Origin: an uncultured Bacteroidia bacterium
GTDB lineage: Bacteria > Bacteroidota > Bacteroidia > J057 > CALAJH01
Assembly: GCA_937922655.1 (NCBI GenBank)
Contig: CALAJH010000062.1
Span: 1-58,460, forward strand
Length of the DNA: 58,460 bases
Direction: 5' to 3'
Shown here: piece after piece, positions 28,141 through 54,875 of the stretch
Layout of the letters: each line of letters opens with the position of its first letter
How positions within the stretch are numbered: position 1 is the first letter of the stretch
Position numbers and translations under genes: made by a program
The notes under the pieces: generated by a model
The model's input: the letters and a program-made list of their open reading frames with translations, nothing else
Database searches by the model: none
What the model was told of the DNA's origin: nothing

Positions 28141-28205
28141 TTGGTATTTGCGTTTTGGCAGAGGATTTTTTACCGAATAAGATACGCAAAACGACCAATA
28201 GGCAT

Positions 28206-28213
28206 TATATTTG
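28206..28213 (+). promoter_or_regulatory. -7 box TATATTTG, proximal porP promoter
   Basis: Exact TAnnTTTG match, 65 bases before the ATG at 28279. Confidence 0.6.
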
Positions 28214-28278
28214 CATGCATCAATTCAAGCAACGTGAATAGGCTCAAACTACGGACAATCCGTAATTGGACAGAAAAT

Positions 28279-29301
28279 ATGAAAAAACTTTTACCGTCTT
28301 TGGCGGCGTTCGCTTGGGCGATGACCACGGCCTGTGAAAACGCCTTTGCCCAAGACCCACAGTTTTCCCAATACTATGCCAATCAGGTATGGTTGAGTCC
28401 CGCGTTTACGGGAGCGCACGAGCACATGCGCGTGGCCATGAATTTTAGGGCGCAATGGCCCGGCGTGGGGGCGGACTTTTACAAGACCTTTGCCACCTCC
28501 TTCGATACGCCCCTAAACATCGGCCCGACGCATCACGGCATCGGCGCGACGATAGCCGTAGACCAAGCCGGACGCGGAAACCTGACCAAAGTCGATTTTT
28601 TGGCCAATTACGCGTACAGTTTCTTTTTACCCGGCGACCGTAGCGCGATTCGTCTGGGTTTGGCGTTCGGTTTGCAACAAGCCAGCATCGACTACTCGAA
28701 ACTCAAATTCCCCGACCAATTCCAAGCCGACGGCTCGACGATATTGTCGCGCACGGGTGAAAACCTCAATCAATCGGAGGCCCGGGTGAACGAAGAAATC
28801 GGCGTCGGGGCCTTGTATTACAGCAATTGGATGTGGGCGGGCGTGGACCTGCGTCACTTGACCATGCCGCGCCAAATTTTTCTGCGTCCCGAGTTCGGGG
28901 GCAACGCGGCCGTTTTGCCGCTTCGTCTTTCGGCCTACACGGGTTTCCGTTTTCCTCTCGTACGCAACGACTATTCAAAGACGATTTCGCCGTCGTTGAT
29001 GTTTCGTTGGCAGCGTCCGTTCGTCCAAGTGGACTTCATGACCTACATGACTTGGGAACCAATCGTGTTCGGTTTGGGTTATAGGGTGTTGTCCGGGGGC
29101 GCGGGTCCCGGTGACGCCGTCATCGGACTTATCGGTTTTCATCGCGGAATGTTCCGCTTCGGATATTCTTACGACTTTACCATCTCCAATTTGACGGTCG
29201 GCGCATCGGGCGGGAGCCACGAGGTGTCGCTTATCGTGGAAATCGAACGGCAGGGCCGCAAGCGCTCTCCGAAAGTAAAAATGAGTTGCCCCAAATTCTA
29301 A
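28279..29301 (+). CDS. T9SS membrane protein, PorP/SprF family
   Basis: 340 residues from the ATG at 28279 (signal peptide MKKLLPSLAAFAWAMTTACENAFAQ). The mature start DPQFSQYYANQVWLSPAFTGA is the family signature, and the rest is a beta-barrel with repeated aromatic strands. PorP/SprF proteins bind the PorK/PorN ring side of T9SS or carry surface filaments such as SprB in gliding bacteria. It lies 30 bases before gldJ. Many genomes have several paralogues; this one cannot be assigned to a particular substrate. A Cys-containing signal region (TTACEN) is not a clear lipobox. Confidence 0.92.
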   Translation: MKKLLPSLAAFAWAMTTACENAFAQDPQFSQYYANQVWLSPAFTGAHEHMRVAMNFRAQWPGVGADFYKTFATSFDTPLNIGPTHHGIGATIAVDQAGRGNLTKVDFLANYAYSFFLPGDRSAIRLGLAFGLQQASIDYSKLKFPDQFQADGSTILSRTGENLNQSEARVNEEIGVGALYYSNWMWAGVDLRHLTMPRQIFLRPEFGGNAAVLPLRLSAYTGFRFPLVRNDYSKTISPSLMFRWQRPFVQVDFMTYMTWEPIVFGLGYRVLSGGAGPGDAVIGLIGFHRGMFRFGYSYDFTISNLTVGASGGSHEVSLIVEIERQGRKRSPKVKMSCPKF

Positions 29302-43524: not shown

Positions 43525-46500
43525 ATGATACACGCCCATTATTTCACTTTTGGTCAAATTATAGAACATCGCTATGTTTTGCCCAAATTCGCCCGCGGTT
43601 ATTCGTGGCGGGTGCAACCGCATTGCCAAATTTTGTTGAACGATTTAATTAAGGCGCAAAAACAAAACCGTAGTTGGTTTTGGGGTTCGATTGTCTTGCA
43701 AAAAAAAGCGGGCGTCGGCTTTGAGGACGCCTATTTCGAGTTATTGGACGGTGCAAGTCGTTTAACGGCGTTGAGCCTGCTTTGGGGGGTAATGCGCGCT
43801 CTTGCGAACAAACCACAAACGACAAGCCCGAAGCCGAATGTAGAGTCCGTTGTTTCCATGGGCGATACTTGCATCGCAATAGAAGAAAACGACCGGGTTC
43901 TGGAAACCGTAAAATACTTTGAAGACAATCTTCGGGCCTATTCGCAAGAGGAGATGGAACGTTTGGCTCAACATCTTCTGCATCAAACGGGCGCGGTTAT
44001 CACCTTCATAGACCCCGAAAAAAATACCCTCGAAATTTATGAAAACGTTCAAAGAAACGCCGTTCCATTCGGATTGTTGGACGAGTTTCGCCAATATTGT
44101 TTTCGAGTGGTTTCCGTTTCCGAACACGAATCGTTCGTCCGTTTACGTTTTCGTCCGTTTGAATCCAAACTTCATTCGATTGCTCCGGCGTTGAAAAACG
44201 GGGACGACGGTATAACGGCTTTTTTCAAAATATTTCTGGCCTCAAAAGGCAAACATGCCATCGGTTCGGCAGGCGTTTGGAGCTTCGATTCCGTATTGAA
44301 CACAATCGAATCGTCCAATGGATTAATCGAGTTCTTTGACGACGCTTTATGGGGTTTGGAGGTGTTGGAGGCGTTGGGTAATGCTCAGGCCAACCTCAAT
44401 ATTTTGCCGATTCCCTCGGAATTTATATCGGCAATCGGACTTGCACGCGTAAAAGCCTCCGTTTATTATCCGTTGATTTTGGCGCTGGCGTTCGCGTATC
44501 GGCAAGGTCGTATGCCGCTTGCCGATGCGGCGCCCGTCTTTGACGCGTTGGAAAACGTTGCGATTCGCTGTACGCTCTGCAACGCCAATCCCAACGACGG
44601 AGTTTCCAAAGCCGTCGAATACACAAACCAAACGAAAAATTTCGACGCGAAAACGTTTGTCGCCCTCTTGACGGGCGACGGTTATCCCGACGACACGGAC
44701 GTGTTTAAAAATTGTGTCACAAGAAAATTTTACAACGGCAACTCCGCCGTAAAGTCCTTGCTTCGTCTGCTGTTGATTAAAATCAATCGGTATATTTCCA
44801 CCGTCGAAGGCAAAGACGCAAGCCGAATCGTTGATTTCAACGGCGCGAAAATCGAACACATATTGCCTCGAAACCGCGAGGCTTGGAAACCGTACTTGCA
44901 ATCCAACGGACAATGGGACGACTTGAGCGAAGAACCCGATATCATTCATTGCATGGGCAACCTGACGCTTCTTTTCGACGGCGAAATCATCGGTTGCAAA
45001 ACCATCGACGAAAAGAAAAAATTGTACGAAGCCAGTCCGATTCTTTTGACGCGAAGGCTGTGTGAATACAAGGTTTTCGGTCCGAAGCAAATTCAAGAAC
45101 GAGGGCAAGCGCTTGCCGAAATCATCGTCAAACATGTTTATCCGAATTTAAAAAGCGCCGCGACGTCAAAGGCCTTGCCGGAGGCGAAAAAAGCGCCCGC
45201 GGCCGTTTCCAATTCCGCTTCGGCGCCTGCCGAAACGCCGTCGCTTGCGCCGGCTTCGTTGCCCGTTTCCGTCGCTCAAAAGCCCGCCGACCCACAGCCC
45301 ACGCCCCCTTCGAGAGCGGTCGTCGATTTTTTCCCCTTGTTGTTTTTTCATTTTATCATTTATTCCTATACGCGTGGAAAAATGGAGGCGACTTTTTCCA
45401 TCGACGATTTCAGGGACTACTTAAATTGTAAAAATTACTACTACGCCTCCGATATTGTAGAAATTCTAAGGAATTCGAGCCTATTTACGGTTGTGAACGA
45501 CGGCAAAAGTTTTAAATTTTACGCCGACGTTCCCAAAACATCGTTCGAGCAGAAGTATTTTGATTATGTGGCGAAAAATAACGTCGTCGACGGGTGGGTG
45601 TTTTTAAACGACTTAAAGAACGACGTTTCTTTGTCAAGCGGCAAAAACGAAATCGACGCTACGGCGTTGTTTCGCAATCGCGAATATTTCGTTGTCGATA
45701 AGGATGCCAAAGAAGCAATTCGATTTCGGTGGAATGTCGCCGCCGCCAAAGCGCCCGTTCAATCCGCCACTCCCGCGACGACTTCCGGCACAACGAAAAA
45801 TACCGAACCGTCCGCCGTTGTAGCGATGTTTAATAGGTTTGTTGCCGCCAACCCTCCTAAAAACGGGCATTATTTGTTAGGCGAATTCGGGACGTTTTTA
45901 AAGAACGAAAATTTTGCTTTTTCGGGTAAGTTGTCCACTTACTTGAAAGGTACGGAATGTTTTGATATTTATGCCGTTGATAAAAAGGATTGCGTCAAAT
46001 TGGCGGACAAATGCCTTGCCCAAAAATTCAACGAACAAAACGTAATCGCCGCCGCCTATCGCGAATTTGTTTTTCTCAACAACGTTCAAGACGGATGGAT
46101 ATCGATGCAAAGGTTTGCCACTTTCTTGACAGAAAAAGGGCAAAAACCGCAAGGGAAGTTTATTAACGTTTTAACCAATTTGGGGTTGTTTGATTTTCAG
46201 GATTCCTTGCATAACGACAAAAAAATACGTTTAAAAGCTTATTCACCGGGGCCGTCGACGCCGACGAAATTGGAGTCCAAGCCAACGGCGGACGAGCGGA
46301 CTTCCGAGCCTCAAAAGGCGCCGGCAGGCCCTACAACCTCCGCTCCCGCGACAACGTCCGATGCATTAAAATATATCGAACCGCGTCCTATCGTGGTAAT
46401 GTTTGCCAAGTTTGTTGCCTTCAACCCTTCCGAAAACGGACATTATTTGTTAAGTGACTTCGGGACGTTTTTAAAGAACGAAAATTTTGTTTTTTCGGTT

Positions 46501-48756
46501 ACCTTGTCCATTTACTTGAAAGGTACAGGATGTTTTAAGATTTATGTTTTCGAAGAAAAGAATTGCATAGACCTAACGGACGAATGGAAAATTCAATATC
46601 TTACCGAACAACTCAAAATCGTTGATGCTTATCGCGAATTTGTTTTTCTCAACAACGTTCAAGACGGATGGATATCGATGCAAAGGTTTGCCGTATTTTT
46701 GGCGGACGTGGAAAAAAAATCACCGGAGGATTTTATTAACATTCTCGACGATCCTAAATGGTTTGATTTTGAGGATTCCCTCCATAACGACAAAAAAATA
46801 CGTTTAAAAATTTGTTCATCCGCGCCAACGACATTGCCGACAACAGAGGACATAACGGTGGCAAACAACTCGTCTTTTGCCGAAAAAAACGACGTATCGC
46901 CGGACGATTTTTGGGGCAATAAAACAACAAAACAACTCGACGAACCCGTAAAACTTATGCACGAACCCCGAAACGAGGTTGTGAAAGCGGATGCGTTCGG
47001 CGCCGTTTCCGATACCGATTCGGGTAAAAACGGGGTTGATTTCAATGAACCGTCGTCGGAGAAGGAAAACGAACCTACCCACGAAAATAAAAATCCTAAA
47101 TCGGCCAACGTTGTCCTTGCAGGAACGATTCCTCCTATTCTTTTCCATTTTTTTAATTTTGCTTCTCCAATGGAGAACTTTTCGCTCCACGAACAAATTG
47201 TTTTTTCCATTGACGATTTTCAAAATTATCTGAACAGAAAGAATATTTCCTATCCGAACAGTTTACTCAAACACTTACAGGAAACACGGTATTTTACGCT
47301 GACGAAACACGGTTGTCGATTTGCCGTTCCGCAGACTCGGTTGAAGCGGCAATTAAGATGGAAATATTTTGTTTGTTTGTCTTCCAACGAAATCGGCTAC
47401 GAATGGGTTCCGCTTCGTTTACTGTCTTCAAAACTGCTTCCGCCCAAGATTGAAGACGACCATTTGTTTTTACAGATAATCCGCAAGTTGGGTATTTTTG
47501 AAATCGATTCTAGTCTCATATATTACACAAAAGTTCGTTTAAAGTGGGGTGACGCCCAAGGTTCAAGTCAAGGCCGCCTTCCGACGATTGTCCATTATTT
47601 CTTTAAGTTTACGGCTCTTTTGCCGAAACCCGAATTCAAAGAGCGTTACAATTTGCAAGACTTTAAAGCATATCTGGATTCTTTGGGAGTGGTATATTCG
47701 GAACCTTTTGAGGATTATTTGTCTTCAAGCAAACAATTTCGTGTTTTTAGTGATGGAACGTTCACTTTGCTCGAACTCTACCGAAGACGATACGCCGTAT
47801 TCAAATTTTTGCGAAGGTTAAAATGGCTTTACTATAAATACGTTTCCGTTTATCAAGCGGAACATGGCTGGATTCTTGTACAAAGATTTGCCAATTTCGC
47901 TAATTTGAAGCGGTTTAAGTATCGCGGCAAATTTTCGGACGTATTGAAAAAGTCGCGCTTGTTTGAAATAAACGCTTGCGAAAACGCTCCCATGGTCCGT
48001 TTGATAAAAAAAACGAAATATTTGTCGCCCGATTGTTTTTTGTTGGCCGAACCCCGTTGTTTGGAAACGGAAAATAATGTTGTCTGTTTGCAGTCCGCGA
48101 ATCTTGAATCCGCCGCCGTGCCGGTGGTCTGTTCGTCGTCGGAAGACGAACGATCTTCGGACGATCGTCCCGATTGTTTTCATTCCGAGGCGTCGATTGA
48201 CCCGGAACGCGAATTTTGGAACGATTTTCCGCCGTCCCGTTGGAAAGGCGCAGTCAAAGTTTGGGACTTTTTACGGAATTTGCGTTCGCAATTTTTGATC
48301 TTCTGTTCCAACGCTTGTCCCGTTTCGGACGACGGTCGTTATTCTTTCGACGAATTTTATGATTTTGGGATTGAATGCGGTTTGAATGGCGCCGAGGATT
48401 GGGAAATCAAGCTTTTGCAAAGCGGTCTTTTTGATTTTTGGGGGCTGGAAAATCACGCTTGTCTTCGTTTGCGAACCCTAAACGACATTACGCTTTTCGA
48501 CGCAAAGTTTTCGTTCGTCGAATTGTCCGTTGAAGATTGGTTTTACCTTTTTTCCCGATTCAACCCGGGCTTGCACGACGACGACGGTTATTTTTCTTTC
48601 TTGGATTTTTGCCGTTTTCTTGGCGGAAAACTTGTCTTGGAACGCAACCAAACCTTTGTCAATTACGTCTTGCAAAGAAAAACTTTTGAACTCGACCTTT
48701 CTCGTTCAATGGGGGCGCGCATTCGCTTTTGGGACGGCAATAATATGGAGGCGTAG
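43525..48756 (+). CDS. DUF262-DUF1524 nuclease-like protein with twelve C-terminal repeat modules
   Basis: 1743 residues, far longer than the ~600-700 of ordinary DUF262/DUF1524 proteins. DUF262 part: [11 protein letters not shown] (18-28), [11 protein letters not shown], and [15 protein letters not shown], where the usual DGQQR reads DGASR (75-79). DUF1524 His-Me-finger part: KIEHILPRN (442-450) and GNLTLL (478-483); further on, where I expect a conserved Asn, the sequence reads GCK (490-492). After an Ala/Pro linker (~546-597) come about twelve ~65-residue modules in six pairs: 598-669/672-737, 763-829/839-904, 953-1022/1033-1095, 1203-1271/1273-1341, 1352-1417/1423-1498, 1578-1652/1655-1740. 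The clearest modules read like [13 protein letters not shown] then GLFDF then IRLK, similar by eye to OST-HTH/LOTUS winged helices. Probably anti-phage or nucleic-acid sensing. The region is more AT-rich than its neighbours. Confidence 0.75.
46057..46692 (+). repeat. Recent tandem duplication of a module pair
   Basis: 63 identical bases at 46057-46119 and 46630-46692, offset 573 bp (191 codons). The surrounding modules are also alike (for instance GTFLKNENF in both copies). This is a recent duplication of one two-module unit in the large DUF262 protein. Confidence 0.85.
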
Positions 48757-48848
48757 GGCGTTGGGTTTGTCGTCGGGGCGGACGCGCCGCATCGTTGCTT
48801 GGGTATTTGTTTTCTTGGAACGAATCCTTTCATAGACGGGTTGTTTGC

Positions 48849-50849
48849 ATGATGAACGCCCTTGCCCAAAGTTCCAGTCCCTATCTCAAACAGCACGCCC
48901 ACAATCCCGTCGATTGGCTCGAATGGTCGCCCGAGGTTTTTGAACGCGCCAAGCGCGAAAACAAACTCGTTTTGGTGAGCATCGGCTATTCGGCCTGTCA
49001 TTGGTGCCACGTCATGGAGCGCGAATCGTTTGAAAACGTGCAAATCGCCGCGTTGATGAACGACCGATTTTTGTGCATAAAGGTCGACCGCGAGGAACGC
49101 CCCGACGTCGACGCCCTTTACATGGACGCGGTGCAGGTCATGAACGGCCGCGGCGGCTGGCCGCTCAATTGTTTTACGCTTCCCGACGGACGGCCGGTTT
49201 TTGGCGGCACGTATTTTCCGCCGGCGCAATGGACGGCCGTTTTGCAACAACTTTCCGAACGTTGGCAGACCGCGCCCGAAAAATTTGAAGAGTACGCCGC
49301 ACGACTGACCGAATATCTGCAACGCGTCGAAAAACCCGAACCCAAAACGGGTTCGGGGCAATTCGGCGCCGAAGATATCGCCGCGGGTTTTATCGCGTTG
49401 ATTCCCTTGCTCGACGCAAGCCTCGGCGGCCTTGCGGGTGCGCCCAAGTTCCCCATGCCGTCGGTCTTCGAGTTTTTGCTTGCCTATACCCGGCTTGGCG
49501 GCGACGAACGCGCCGCCCGACCCTTGGACGTTACGCTTACGCAAATGGCCCGCGGCGGCATTTTCGACCACGTCGGCGGCGGCTTTGCCCGTTATTCCAC
49601 CGACGCGCGTTGGCACGTGCCGCATTTTGAAAAAATGCTTTACGACAACGCCCTCTTGCTTTCGCTTTATTCCCGCGCCGCCGAGCGCAACAACGAATAT
49701 CTCGAATGCGCCGAAAAAACCTTTGATTTCATCGTAAACGAACTCTCGGCCCCCGACGGCGGATTTTATTGCGCTTACGACGCCGACAGCGAAGGGCAAG
49801 AAGGCAAATTTTACGTCTGGAGCCACGACGAATGGATTTCGGCTTGCGAACCCGAATGGGCCGAACGCATGGCCGCCGCTTTTCACATTAGCCCGCAAGG
49901 CAATTGGGAACACGGCCAAAACATCCCCTTTCGCACCGATTCCGACGAACAGGCCGCACGCGTCTTCGGCGTGGATTTCGACGATTGGCGGGCGGCGAAA
50001 AACCGTTCCTTGAAAAAACTTTACCAACAACGCGCCACGCGCGTCAAACCCGGTTTGGACGACAAAATACTCGCGGCGTGGAACGGTATGGTCGTCGCCG
50101 CCGCCTGCGACTTCGCCGTCGCCCACCCCGGCCGTAGAAAACACGCCCTCGACGTCGCCGAAAAATCGGTTCGTTACCTCAAAAACGTACACGTCAAAAA
50201 CCACAGGGTTTGGCGAACGCCCAAAATCAACGGTTTTGCCGACGACTACGCTTTCGTCGTTCGTGCGTTTGTTCGTTTCGCGCAGGTTTGCGGGCAAACC
50301 GAATGGTGGCATAGCGCCCACGACCTCGTTCAAAGCTGTATGGAATACTTTTTCGACGCTTCGACGGGCTTCTTTTTCTTTACCCCAAGCGACGGCCAAG
50401 CGCTTGTCGCCCGCAATTACGAGCTTTACGACAACGTCGTTCCGTCGTCGAACGCCGTGATGATGCACAACCTTTTGACGTTGGGCAAGGTTTTCGACCG
50501 CAGGGATTGGGTGCAAATCGCACGAAACGCCGCCGTTTCGATGCGCGACGACTTTCATCGCCACCCCGCCACGTATTCGCATTGGGGGTCGTTGATGGCG
50601 CGATTGGGATTTGAAAGCCGGGAGGCGGTGGTGGCGGGCGCCGACGCGTTCGACGTTTTCGCGGCCGTCGAATCCAAGCACCGCGACCGGGTGTTGGCGC
50701 TTCATTTGTCACAGCCCGACGACCAAATCCCCGTTTTCGCTTACCGCTTCCAAAACAAAAACACGCTCTACGTTTGCGACCAAAAAGGATGCCTTCCCCC
50801 CGAAACGAACGACCTGCTTGCCGCCGCCGACCGACTCATCGCTTCGTAG
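48849..50849 (+). CDS. DUF255 thioredoxin-like protein (YyaL/spermatogenesis-associated protein 20 family)
   Basis: 666 residues from the first of two ATGs at 48849. The N-terminal thioredoxin-like domain has [19 protein letters not shown] and the motif [16 protein letters not shown] (C50 and C53), then [13 protein letters not shown]. The remainder is an alpha/alpha six-barrel like glycoside hydrolase-type folds ([40 protein letters not shown]). The family is broadly conserved; its substrate is not known. It overlaps the 3' end of the convergent galT by 14 bases. Confidence 0.88.
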
Positions 50850-53864: not shown

Positions 53865-54875
53865 ATGAACGGCGGATTGGAGGCTTTTGTTTGCGACACG
53901 GGCATCAAACGGATAATGAACCGTAATCCCGAATTTTTTTGGGGCTTGTTGTTTCCGGGTTTGCGGGCGACGCTCGTCGTTCCGGGGGGCGACAAGGAGT
54001 TGGTCGAATCGGAACGGACTTTGCGCGGCGACGGTTCGTGGTCGGCCAAGGTGGAGGGCGTTGGCGAGGCGGCGTTTTTTTGGTGCGAGGCGTTTACGCG
54101 CTACGACAAAAACATCGCCGTGCGGGTCGTCGAATACAAGACGGGCAAGCATCGCGAGCATCTTTCGGCGCACAAGGAGTCGGCGGCGGTGTACGCGGGA
54201 GCGGTGGTTTTGACGCATCCGCCTTCGGGGGCGAGTTTTTCGCTTTCCGGGATGCCGGAGATTGTCGTTCCGCACGTGGTCATGCCGTGTTTGCCGGTTG
54301 AACGGTGTTTGGGCGTCGAGGGGATTGCGGGGGGCGCGTTGGCGGTTTTGTCGGACGAACGCAACCTTGCGGTCGATAAAATCGTAGAAAGGTTGAACGC
54401 GGTCGAGGACGAAGTTCAATGGCGGAGTTGGGCGTCGATAGTTTTCGGATTTTCGGCCGCGGTCAAGGACGGGAAATTTTTCAGGAAATTTATGGAGTTA
54501 TTGCAAACGACCGCGGAGGCGGAGAAGATTCGTAAACTTAAAGAGGAGTTGGCGCCGGTTTTGGAGGTGCTTTACGAGATGCGCTACGAGGAGGGCTTGG
54601 ACGAGGGTTTTTCTCAGGGTTTTTCTCAGGGCTTTTCGGAGGGTGAGAAAAAAGGCTTTTCGGAGGGTGAGAAAAAAGGCTTTTCGGAGGGTGAGAAAAA
54701 AGGTTTCTCTGAGGGCGAAAAAACGGGTTTCTCCAAGGGCGAATTGGGTAAAAGCTTGAAATTGGCGGCCAAACTTTTGGAGCGCGGCATGAGCGTCGAA
54801 GAGGTGGCCGACCTTACGGAACTCGACGTTGCGAAGGTGGCCGCCATCACTTCGGACAAAAACCCGATCGATTAA
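53865..54875 (+). CDS. Rpn/PD-(D/E)XK-like protein with GFSEGEKK repeats
   Basis: 336 residues from the ATG at 53865. Its core MNRNPEFFWGLLFPGLRATLVV, then FFWCEAFTRYDKNIAVRVVEYKTGKHREH, resembles Rpn-like nuclease family members (pattern with E, then xRYDKxxxxRxxxY). The C-terminal ~90 residues carry Gly-Phe-Ser repeats (GFSQ, GFSEGEKK), then LLERGMSVEEVADLTELDVAKVAAIT, a common ending of these proteins. It may be a mobile or toxin-like gene; it resembles the Rpn-like gene in the atp operon only in general layout. Confidence 0.7.
   Translation: MNGGLEAFVCDTGIKRIMNRNPEFFWGLLFPGLRATLVVPGGDKELVESERTLRGDGSWSAKVEGVGEAAFFWCEAFTRYDKNIAVRVVEYKTGKHREHLSAHKESAAVYAGAVVLTHPPSGASFSLSGMPEIVVPHVVMPCLPVERCLGVEGIAGGALAVLSDERNLAVDKIVERLNAVEDEVQWRSWASIVFGFSAAVKDGKFFRKFMELLQTTAEAEKIRKLKEELAPVLEVLYEMRYEEGLDEGFSQGFSQGFSEGEKKGFSEGEKKGFSEGEKKGFSEGEKTGFSKGELGKSLKLAAKLLERGMSVEEVADLTELDVAKVAAITSDKNPID
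54606..54749 (+). repeat. 24-bp tandem repeats in the Rpn-like gene
   Basis: Two 12-bp units GGTTTTTCTCAG (54606-54629) are followed by three near-identical 24-bp units (54630-54653, 54654-54677, 54678-54701) and two degenerate ones (54702-54749). The unit encodes GFSEGEKK. In-frame copy number could vary by slippage. Confidence 0.9.

Follow-up and report, generated by a model that had tools for sequence, protein, structure and literature searches.

Contig CALAJH010000062.1 of an uncultured Bacteroidia bacterium (assembly GCA_937922655.1), analysed over its whole stretch of 58,460 nucleotides (the window), was found to carry at 43525..48756 on the plus strand a gene for a degenerate GmrSD-like protein with a tail of twelve winged-helix modules, as indicated by its open frame, Pfam matches and G+C content. 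The open reading frame (ORF) is uninterrupted over 1743 amino acids, with an ATG start and zero internal stops. A GmrSD-type DUF262-DUF1524 half occupies approximately residues 1–545 and is followed by twelve modules of ~67 residues, which span residues 598–1735. An earlier note on this DNA had described a giant DUF262-DUF1524 protein with a tail of ~1150 residues, and the ORF, its strand, its coordinates and the Pfam matches agree with that description. The length of the protein is exceptional, as other DUF262-DUF1524 proteins found here (80 kept relatives) are mostly of ~550–855 amino acids. The favoured, though tentative, reading is that the gene was acquired by horizontal transfer and encodes a pseudo-GmrSD scaffold fused to a LOTUS-like array, which would bind nucleic acid (probably RNA) multivalently and by which a target would be sequestered, clustered or marked rather than cut; this is given somewhat less than an even chance.

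GmrSD proteins are known to combine a sensor of DNA modification with a nuclease and belong to type IV modification-dependent restriction. On the basis of (i) Pfam, (ii) PADLOC and (iii) identity to relatives, the GmrSD-like half was assigned to 43525..45159 (plus strand). GmrSD_N/DUF262 (PF03235) was matched at residues 15–146 (3e-10) and GmrSD_C/DUF1524 (PF07510) at residues 388–532 (7e-15), both over the cut-off, so that the two domains lie on one chain in the order that defines the family. The PADLOC profiles Orf5/HEC-06 also match this half, at up to 2e-38. A scan of 84,980 species found its closest relatives at ~23% identity over ~530 residues, with matches to the first half only.

Several motifs typical of GmrSD enzymes were found to be altered in this half. 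They were compared with those of 76 DUF262-DUF1524 homologues, own-genome paralogues included (77 aligned sequences with the query). At the QR position (residues 23–24; 43591..43596) the protein has AR, the Q being present in 74 of the 76 homologues with a gap in two, while DGQQR (residues 75–79; 43747..43761) has become DGASR at a site where QQ is found in 75 of 76 with a gap in one. The FxxxN motif (residues 172–176; 44038..44052) reads YENVQ, i.e., YxxxQ, its F occurring in 74 and its N in all 76 homologues. In the His-Me finger, E444-H445 (44854..44859) and N479 are kept, but G486 replaces the last Asn of the H-N-N set (N479 to G486, 44959..44982), which is present in 75 of 76 homologues, and there are zero Asn in residues 480–500. 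The replaced residues are A23, A77, S78, Q176 and G486 (Q, Q, Q, N, and N in the homologues); all of these motifs lie on the plus strand. Two peptide patterns used in the scan for relatives cover the QR region (with Q or A allowed) and the EKKK region, which biases conservation there upwards, while DGQQR, FxxxN and the last His-Me Asn lie outside both patterns.

Overall, the query deviates at 48 of 95 conserved columns, the most of all 77 aligned sequences, and keeps the other 47. The loss of motifs is not a matter of simple divergence, as three homologues that deviate at 38–40 of the 95 columns still have FQRxYSW and DGQQR. In GrwAB, protection against phage is abolished by replacing the Arg of DGQQR, the His (H431A) or either Asn (N521A, N530A) (PMC12137116), and in EcSspE R133A and N724A each abolish defence (PMC13251355). 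The position of G486 corresponds to GrwA N530; given the loss of this last Asn, the canonical nucleoside triphosphate (NTP)-gated nuclease of the GmrSD-like half is probably inactive. The protein had been compared with restriction proteins, and a working enzyme of this kind was not borne out, with QR, DGQQR, FxxxN and the last His-Me Asn all changed.

The tail was found to consist of six alternating A-B pairs of modules, which confirms the suggestion in the earlier note of about twelve modules in six pairs. Each module was left out in turn and scored with a profile built from the others, against 1000 of its own shuffles; eleven of the twelve beat every shuffle, and M8, the weakest, beat 999 (its 7.2 bits being reached by one of the 1000). 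The A-type modules, all on the plus strand and given with their residues, coordinates and leave-one-out scores, are M1 (598–668; 45316..45528; 27.3 bits), M3 (762–828; 45808..46008), M5 (953–1019; 46381..46581; 55.0 bits), M7 (1201–1268; 47125..47328; 26.2 bits), M9 (1352–1417; 47578..47775; 30.3 bits) and the diverged M11 (1576–1650; 48250..48474; 17.7 bits). The B-type modules, on the same strand, are M2 (672–737; 45538..45735; 20.4 bits), M4 (838–905; 46036..46239), M6 (1029–1096; 46609..46812; 61.0 bits), M8 (1276–1345; 47350..47559), the strongly basic M10 (1430–1495; 47812..48009; 46.1 bits) and the diverged M12 (1664–1735; 48514..48729; 12.1 bits). The odd/even split into A and B types ranks second of 462 bipartitions for within-type similarity. 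A DGW/Y segment had been ascribed to each module, but it is plain only in B-type modules, namely M2, M4, M6, M10 (as HGW) and M12 (as DGY).

The M3-M4 pair is a duplicate of M5-M6, with 76% DNA identity, a nonsynonymous divergence (dN) of 0.25 and a synonymous divergence (dS) of 0.50, from which it follows that the array grew at least partly by duplication of an A-B pair. Linkers at residues 546–597, 738–761, and 906–952 are composed of 60–67% Ala, Pro, Ser and Thr, and those at 1097–1200 and 1496–1575 are acidic (isoelectric point ~4.5), in keeping with the Ala/Pro-rich or charged spacers previously noticed.

The modules are predicted to be winged helices, with LOTUS/OST-HTH domains as the apparent nearest kind. 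AlphaFold models were built from the module alignment for M3 alone and for the M3-M4 pair, with a predicted local distance difference test (pLDDT) score of 96.1 and 85.8, respectively. The modelled topology (helix-strand-helix-helix-strand-strand) is that of the OST-HTH/LOTUS fold. With VIA-align, the top eight rows for M3 were all LOTUS/OST-HTH structures (2kzv, Tejas, Marf1, TDRD5, TDRD7 and three Oskar entries), 2kzv from Chromobacterium violaceum being matched with Z 6.8 at 2.6 Å over 67/67 residues and 19% identity; the first non-LOTUS row was ORC, at Z 5.8. For M4, in the model of the pair, the Marf1 LOTUS domain was the first row (Z 8.1, 2.4 Å over 70 residues), with ORC close behind. 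Foldseek returned zero PDB matches under E 0.001 for the M3 or the M3-M4 model. The bacterial structures 2kzv and 2kpm were confirmed as OST-HTH by profile (1e-16 and 2e-21, respectively).

Profile-profile comparison (hhalign) of the modules with bacterial OST-HTH gave P 0.0006, with a probability of only 29%, and it placed DGW on DGW with the last helix in register. The score of 22.4 exceeds the best of 200 column shuffles (16.3) and that of the reversed profile (9.5). The LOTUS-like nature of the modules is supported by predicted structure and by profile comparison, and the earlier guess of a LOTUS/OST-HTH layout stands as a likeness but not as membership at the Pfam level. No Pfam family was found above its cut-off in the tail, and matches of PF14553/YqbF, S_100 and FRQ to single modules, all under the cut-off, were rejected as chance. 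The array also differs from known bacterial OST-HTH proteins in its twelve copies and in having no NYN nuclease. A survey from 2010 describes nearly all bacterial OST-HTH domains as attached to an LK-nuclease, singly or in twos (PMC2848206).

The fusion of DUF262-DUF1524 to a LOTUS-like array is known from one genome. A module profile was run on 395 genomes of the phylum, 22 of the order and 295 of the class, which partly overlap and amount to at most ~700 distinct genomes; strong matches were obtained in these samples in the own genome only, which is the sole one of its family in the genome collection sampled. Weak matches (E 0.001–0.01) involved a partial module or unrelated proteins and were rejected as chance. 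The same profile found no convincing module in the genomes of eleven DUF262 relatives, and the 80 relatives kept from the 84,980-species scan match the N-terminal half only, likewise with no convincing module. A tblastn search of 72,556 plasmids and 50,697 phage records yielded no relative of the tail, and viral contigs scanned with M3-M6, M7-M12, the GmrSD half and the DUF3825 protein described below gave nothing, in a search that reaches close relatives only. Homologues combining a DUF262 N-terminus with the modules, for which the earlier note had proposed a search, were thus not found in the sampled genomes, plasmids and phages, and the sampled genomes gave no homologue with another number of modules that could bear on the earlier conjecture of recognition tuned by module expansion. 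Canonical OST-HTH (PF12872) was detected in 132 of 296 phylum genomes, mostly in proteins of ~250 amino acids and in frames of at most 545 amino acids, so that no comparable canonical array was seen among these 296. The own genome has no canonical OST-HTH domain at E 1, vs. the 132 of 296 sampled phylum genomes that have one.

Single elements of the fusion do occur elsewhere in the same genome. At least three other DUF262-DUF1524 paralogues, without the array, have intact motifs including DGQQR; they lie on contigs C57 (162–2393, minus strand), C33 (230–2374, plus strand) and C50 (near 48500–50400, minus strand). Two of the three sit at extreme contig ends, which looks as though assembly stops at members of this family, and two of the three have a common C-terminal domain of ~110 amino acids. 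A 556-amino-acid protein on contig C75 (548–2218) carries one A-type module (leave-one-out score 38.4 bits) N-terminal to DUF3825 (PF12873, 1e-23), and so resembles the array protein in its module while differing in the single copy and in having DUF3825 instead of GmrSD. DUF3825 proteins in other genomes have no recognisable module, and DUF3825 therefore gives no independent support for a LOTUS identity. The first 75 residues of the C75 protein may form a further winged helix, and its gene adjoins an apparent 5S rRNA gene at the contig start.

The G+C content of the gene is 47% in the N-terminal half and 44% in the tail, much lower than the 55–59% of the other window genes tested, and the G+C content at third codon positions is also well under that of the neighbours. 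This composition points to acquisition from elsewhere by horizontal transfer. The gene appears to be monocistronic, with an opposite-strand M23 peptidase/TPR pair on one side and a DUF255 thioredoxin-like protein on the other. The surrounding genes are of a housekeeping kind, including ATP synthase (atp), galT, phosphomethylpyrimidine kinase and a GH3 protein, and no defence island, defence or mobility gene or partner gene was found among the neighbours in the window, a location that is frequent but not required for GmrSD systems. The clustering in defence islands that had been suggested as a check was consequently not seen. Compared with GmrSD, BrxU, SspE and GrwA, the protein is alike in its two-domain half, its domain order and its catalytic His and first Asn, but it differs in the lost motifs, the ~1150 extra residues and the lack of defence neighbours. 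Elsewhere in the window, a 336-amino-acid protein (53865–54875, plus strand) has C-terminal tandem repeats of the GFSEGEKK type and matches the PADLOC 'putative invertase' C3a178 at 5e-5, being perhaps transposase- or Rpn-like, and a PorP/SprF type IX secretion protein, which suggests a genome of the Bacteroidota type, is encoded at 28141–29301 (plus strand).

From these features we infer a scaffold role, nucleic-acid binding, a preference for RNA and a biological purpose for the protein. It is proposed that a stand-alone GmrSD-family protein was acquired horizontally and that its NTPase/nuclease half, with its hallmark residues lost, would now serve as a scaffold in which the oligomerising fold is probably kept. 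The twelve LOTUS-like winged helices would have expanded at least in part by pair duplication, and, to judge from their fold, may bind nucleic acid or G-quadruplexes. Binding would be multivalent, through avidity, and most likely directed at structured or G-rich RNA, in line with a report that minimal LOTUS domains from different kingdoms bind RNA G-quadruplexes (Ding et al., 2020, as cited in PMC8331183). The protein would then sequester, cluster or mark its target and would not cut it by the canonical NTP-gated route. Evidence for constraint is provided by the dN and dS values of the duplicated pairs together with the intact 1743-codon frame.

Several observations weigh against this proposal. 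Winged helices can bind DNA, and those of ORC and MukE lie within ~1 Z of LOTUS, at VIA Z values that, when below 8, can reflect a shared winged-helix arrangement; with Z this modest, structure alone does not settle the module family. With PF12872, zero modules were listed at E 10, and the Pfam cut-off was not reached. The signature DxRNYG[FY], which precedes the last helix in bacterial OST-HTH, is absent from the module alignments, in which this loop is shorter and has at most GK in its place. The modules are for these reasons called LOTUS-like and not LOTUS. Net charges are mixed (M10 +11, M4 +3, M6 −3 and M11 −5), with −6 for the whole tail, which does not favour nucleic-acid binding by the array in general; any such binding may be confined to some of the modules. 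Extended LOTUS domains are known to bind proteins. In the GmrSD-like half, the Asp, Gly and Arg of DGQQR are retained together with E444, H445 and N479, this Arg having been shown to be indispensable in SspE and GrwAB (PMC12137116, PMC13251355); the retention of the Arg, H445 and N479 leaves room for residual or altered catalysis.

These retained residues are central to one alternative, which is considered unlikely, namely that the protein, though divergent, works as a type IV-like nuclease of defence, with the array sensing phage RNA or DNA and licensing the His-Me half non-canonically, or that it partners an intact DUF262 protein. The fold family is linked to defence, as the PADLOC match indicates, the E-H pair and the first Asn of the nuclease persist along with the essential Arg, and the three intact paralogues of the own genome could act as partners. 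In GrwAB, both DUF262 proteins are needed, and one of them has extra domains of unknown function (PMC12137116). However, the last His-Me Asn is gone with no other Asn nearby, and N530A at the equivalent position kills GrwAB; QR, QQ and FxxxN are also lost, and no partner or defence gene adjoins the locus. A defence role by way of the fold family or of partner paralogues, as in the two-protein GrwAB, is possible, with no direct support in the locus.

A second alternative, also judged improbable, is that of a DNA- or protein-binding scaffold, whose winged helices would bind either double-stranded DNA, like those of ORC or MarR-like proteins, or protein partners, instead of RNA, and would organise chromosomal or mobile DNA. 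It would fit the action of GmrSD relatives on DNA, the protein binding of extended LOTUS domains and the scores of ORC, MukE and MarR-type winged helices, which come within ~1–2 Z of LOTUS. On the other hand, LOTUS accounts for all eight top rows of M3 and the first row of M4, the OST-HTH profile match lies above its shuffles, and the second module protein of the genome is a fusion to DUF3825, which is not a known DNA enzyme. Least probable is that the gene is in decay, the fused remnant of a restriction gene on its way to a pseudogene, with the array as a by-product of recombination: several invariant residues are lost, the deviation is the largest in the alignment, a dN/dS of ~0.5 between the duplicate pairs denotes only mild constraint and the gene is known from one genome, but the frame is intact and was preserved by module duplication, all twelve modules are recognisable, those modelled fold confidently and the GmrSD half retains 47 of its conserved columns.

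The favoured reading, a scaffold with a LOTUS-like array, invites comparison with MARF1, which has a long tandem LOTUS array on one chain; in Drosophila it has six LOTUS domains plus an RRM (PMC6168497). MARF1 differs in being eukaryotic, in its canonical LOTUS domains, in recruiting CCR4-NOT and in having no GmrSD half. On a bolder view, which is rather doubtful, the protein could be a bacterial counterpart of MARF1-type tandem-LOTUS proteins, a disarmed restriction enzyme rebuilt as an RNA-recognition scaffold, possibly sensing or sequestering the RNA of phages or mobile elements, with the length of its array evolving by pair duplication. If the reading is true, the GmrSD family would have been reused as a binding scaffold after losing its catalytic motifs and gaining twelve LOTUS-like domains, and bacteria would possess a tandem-LOTUS protein comparable to those known to regulate RNA in animals.

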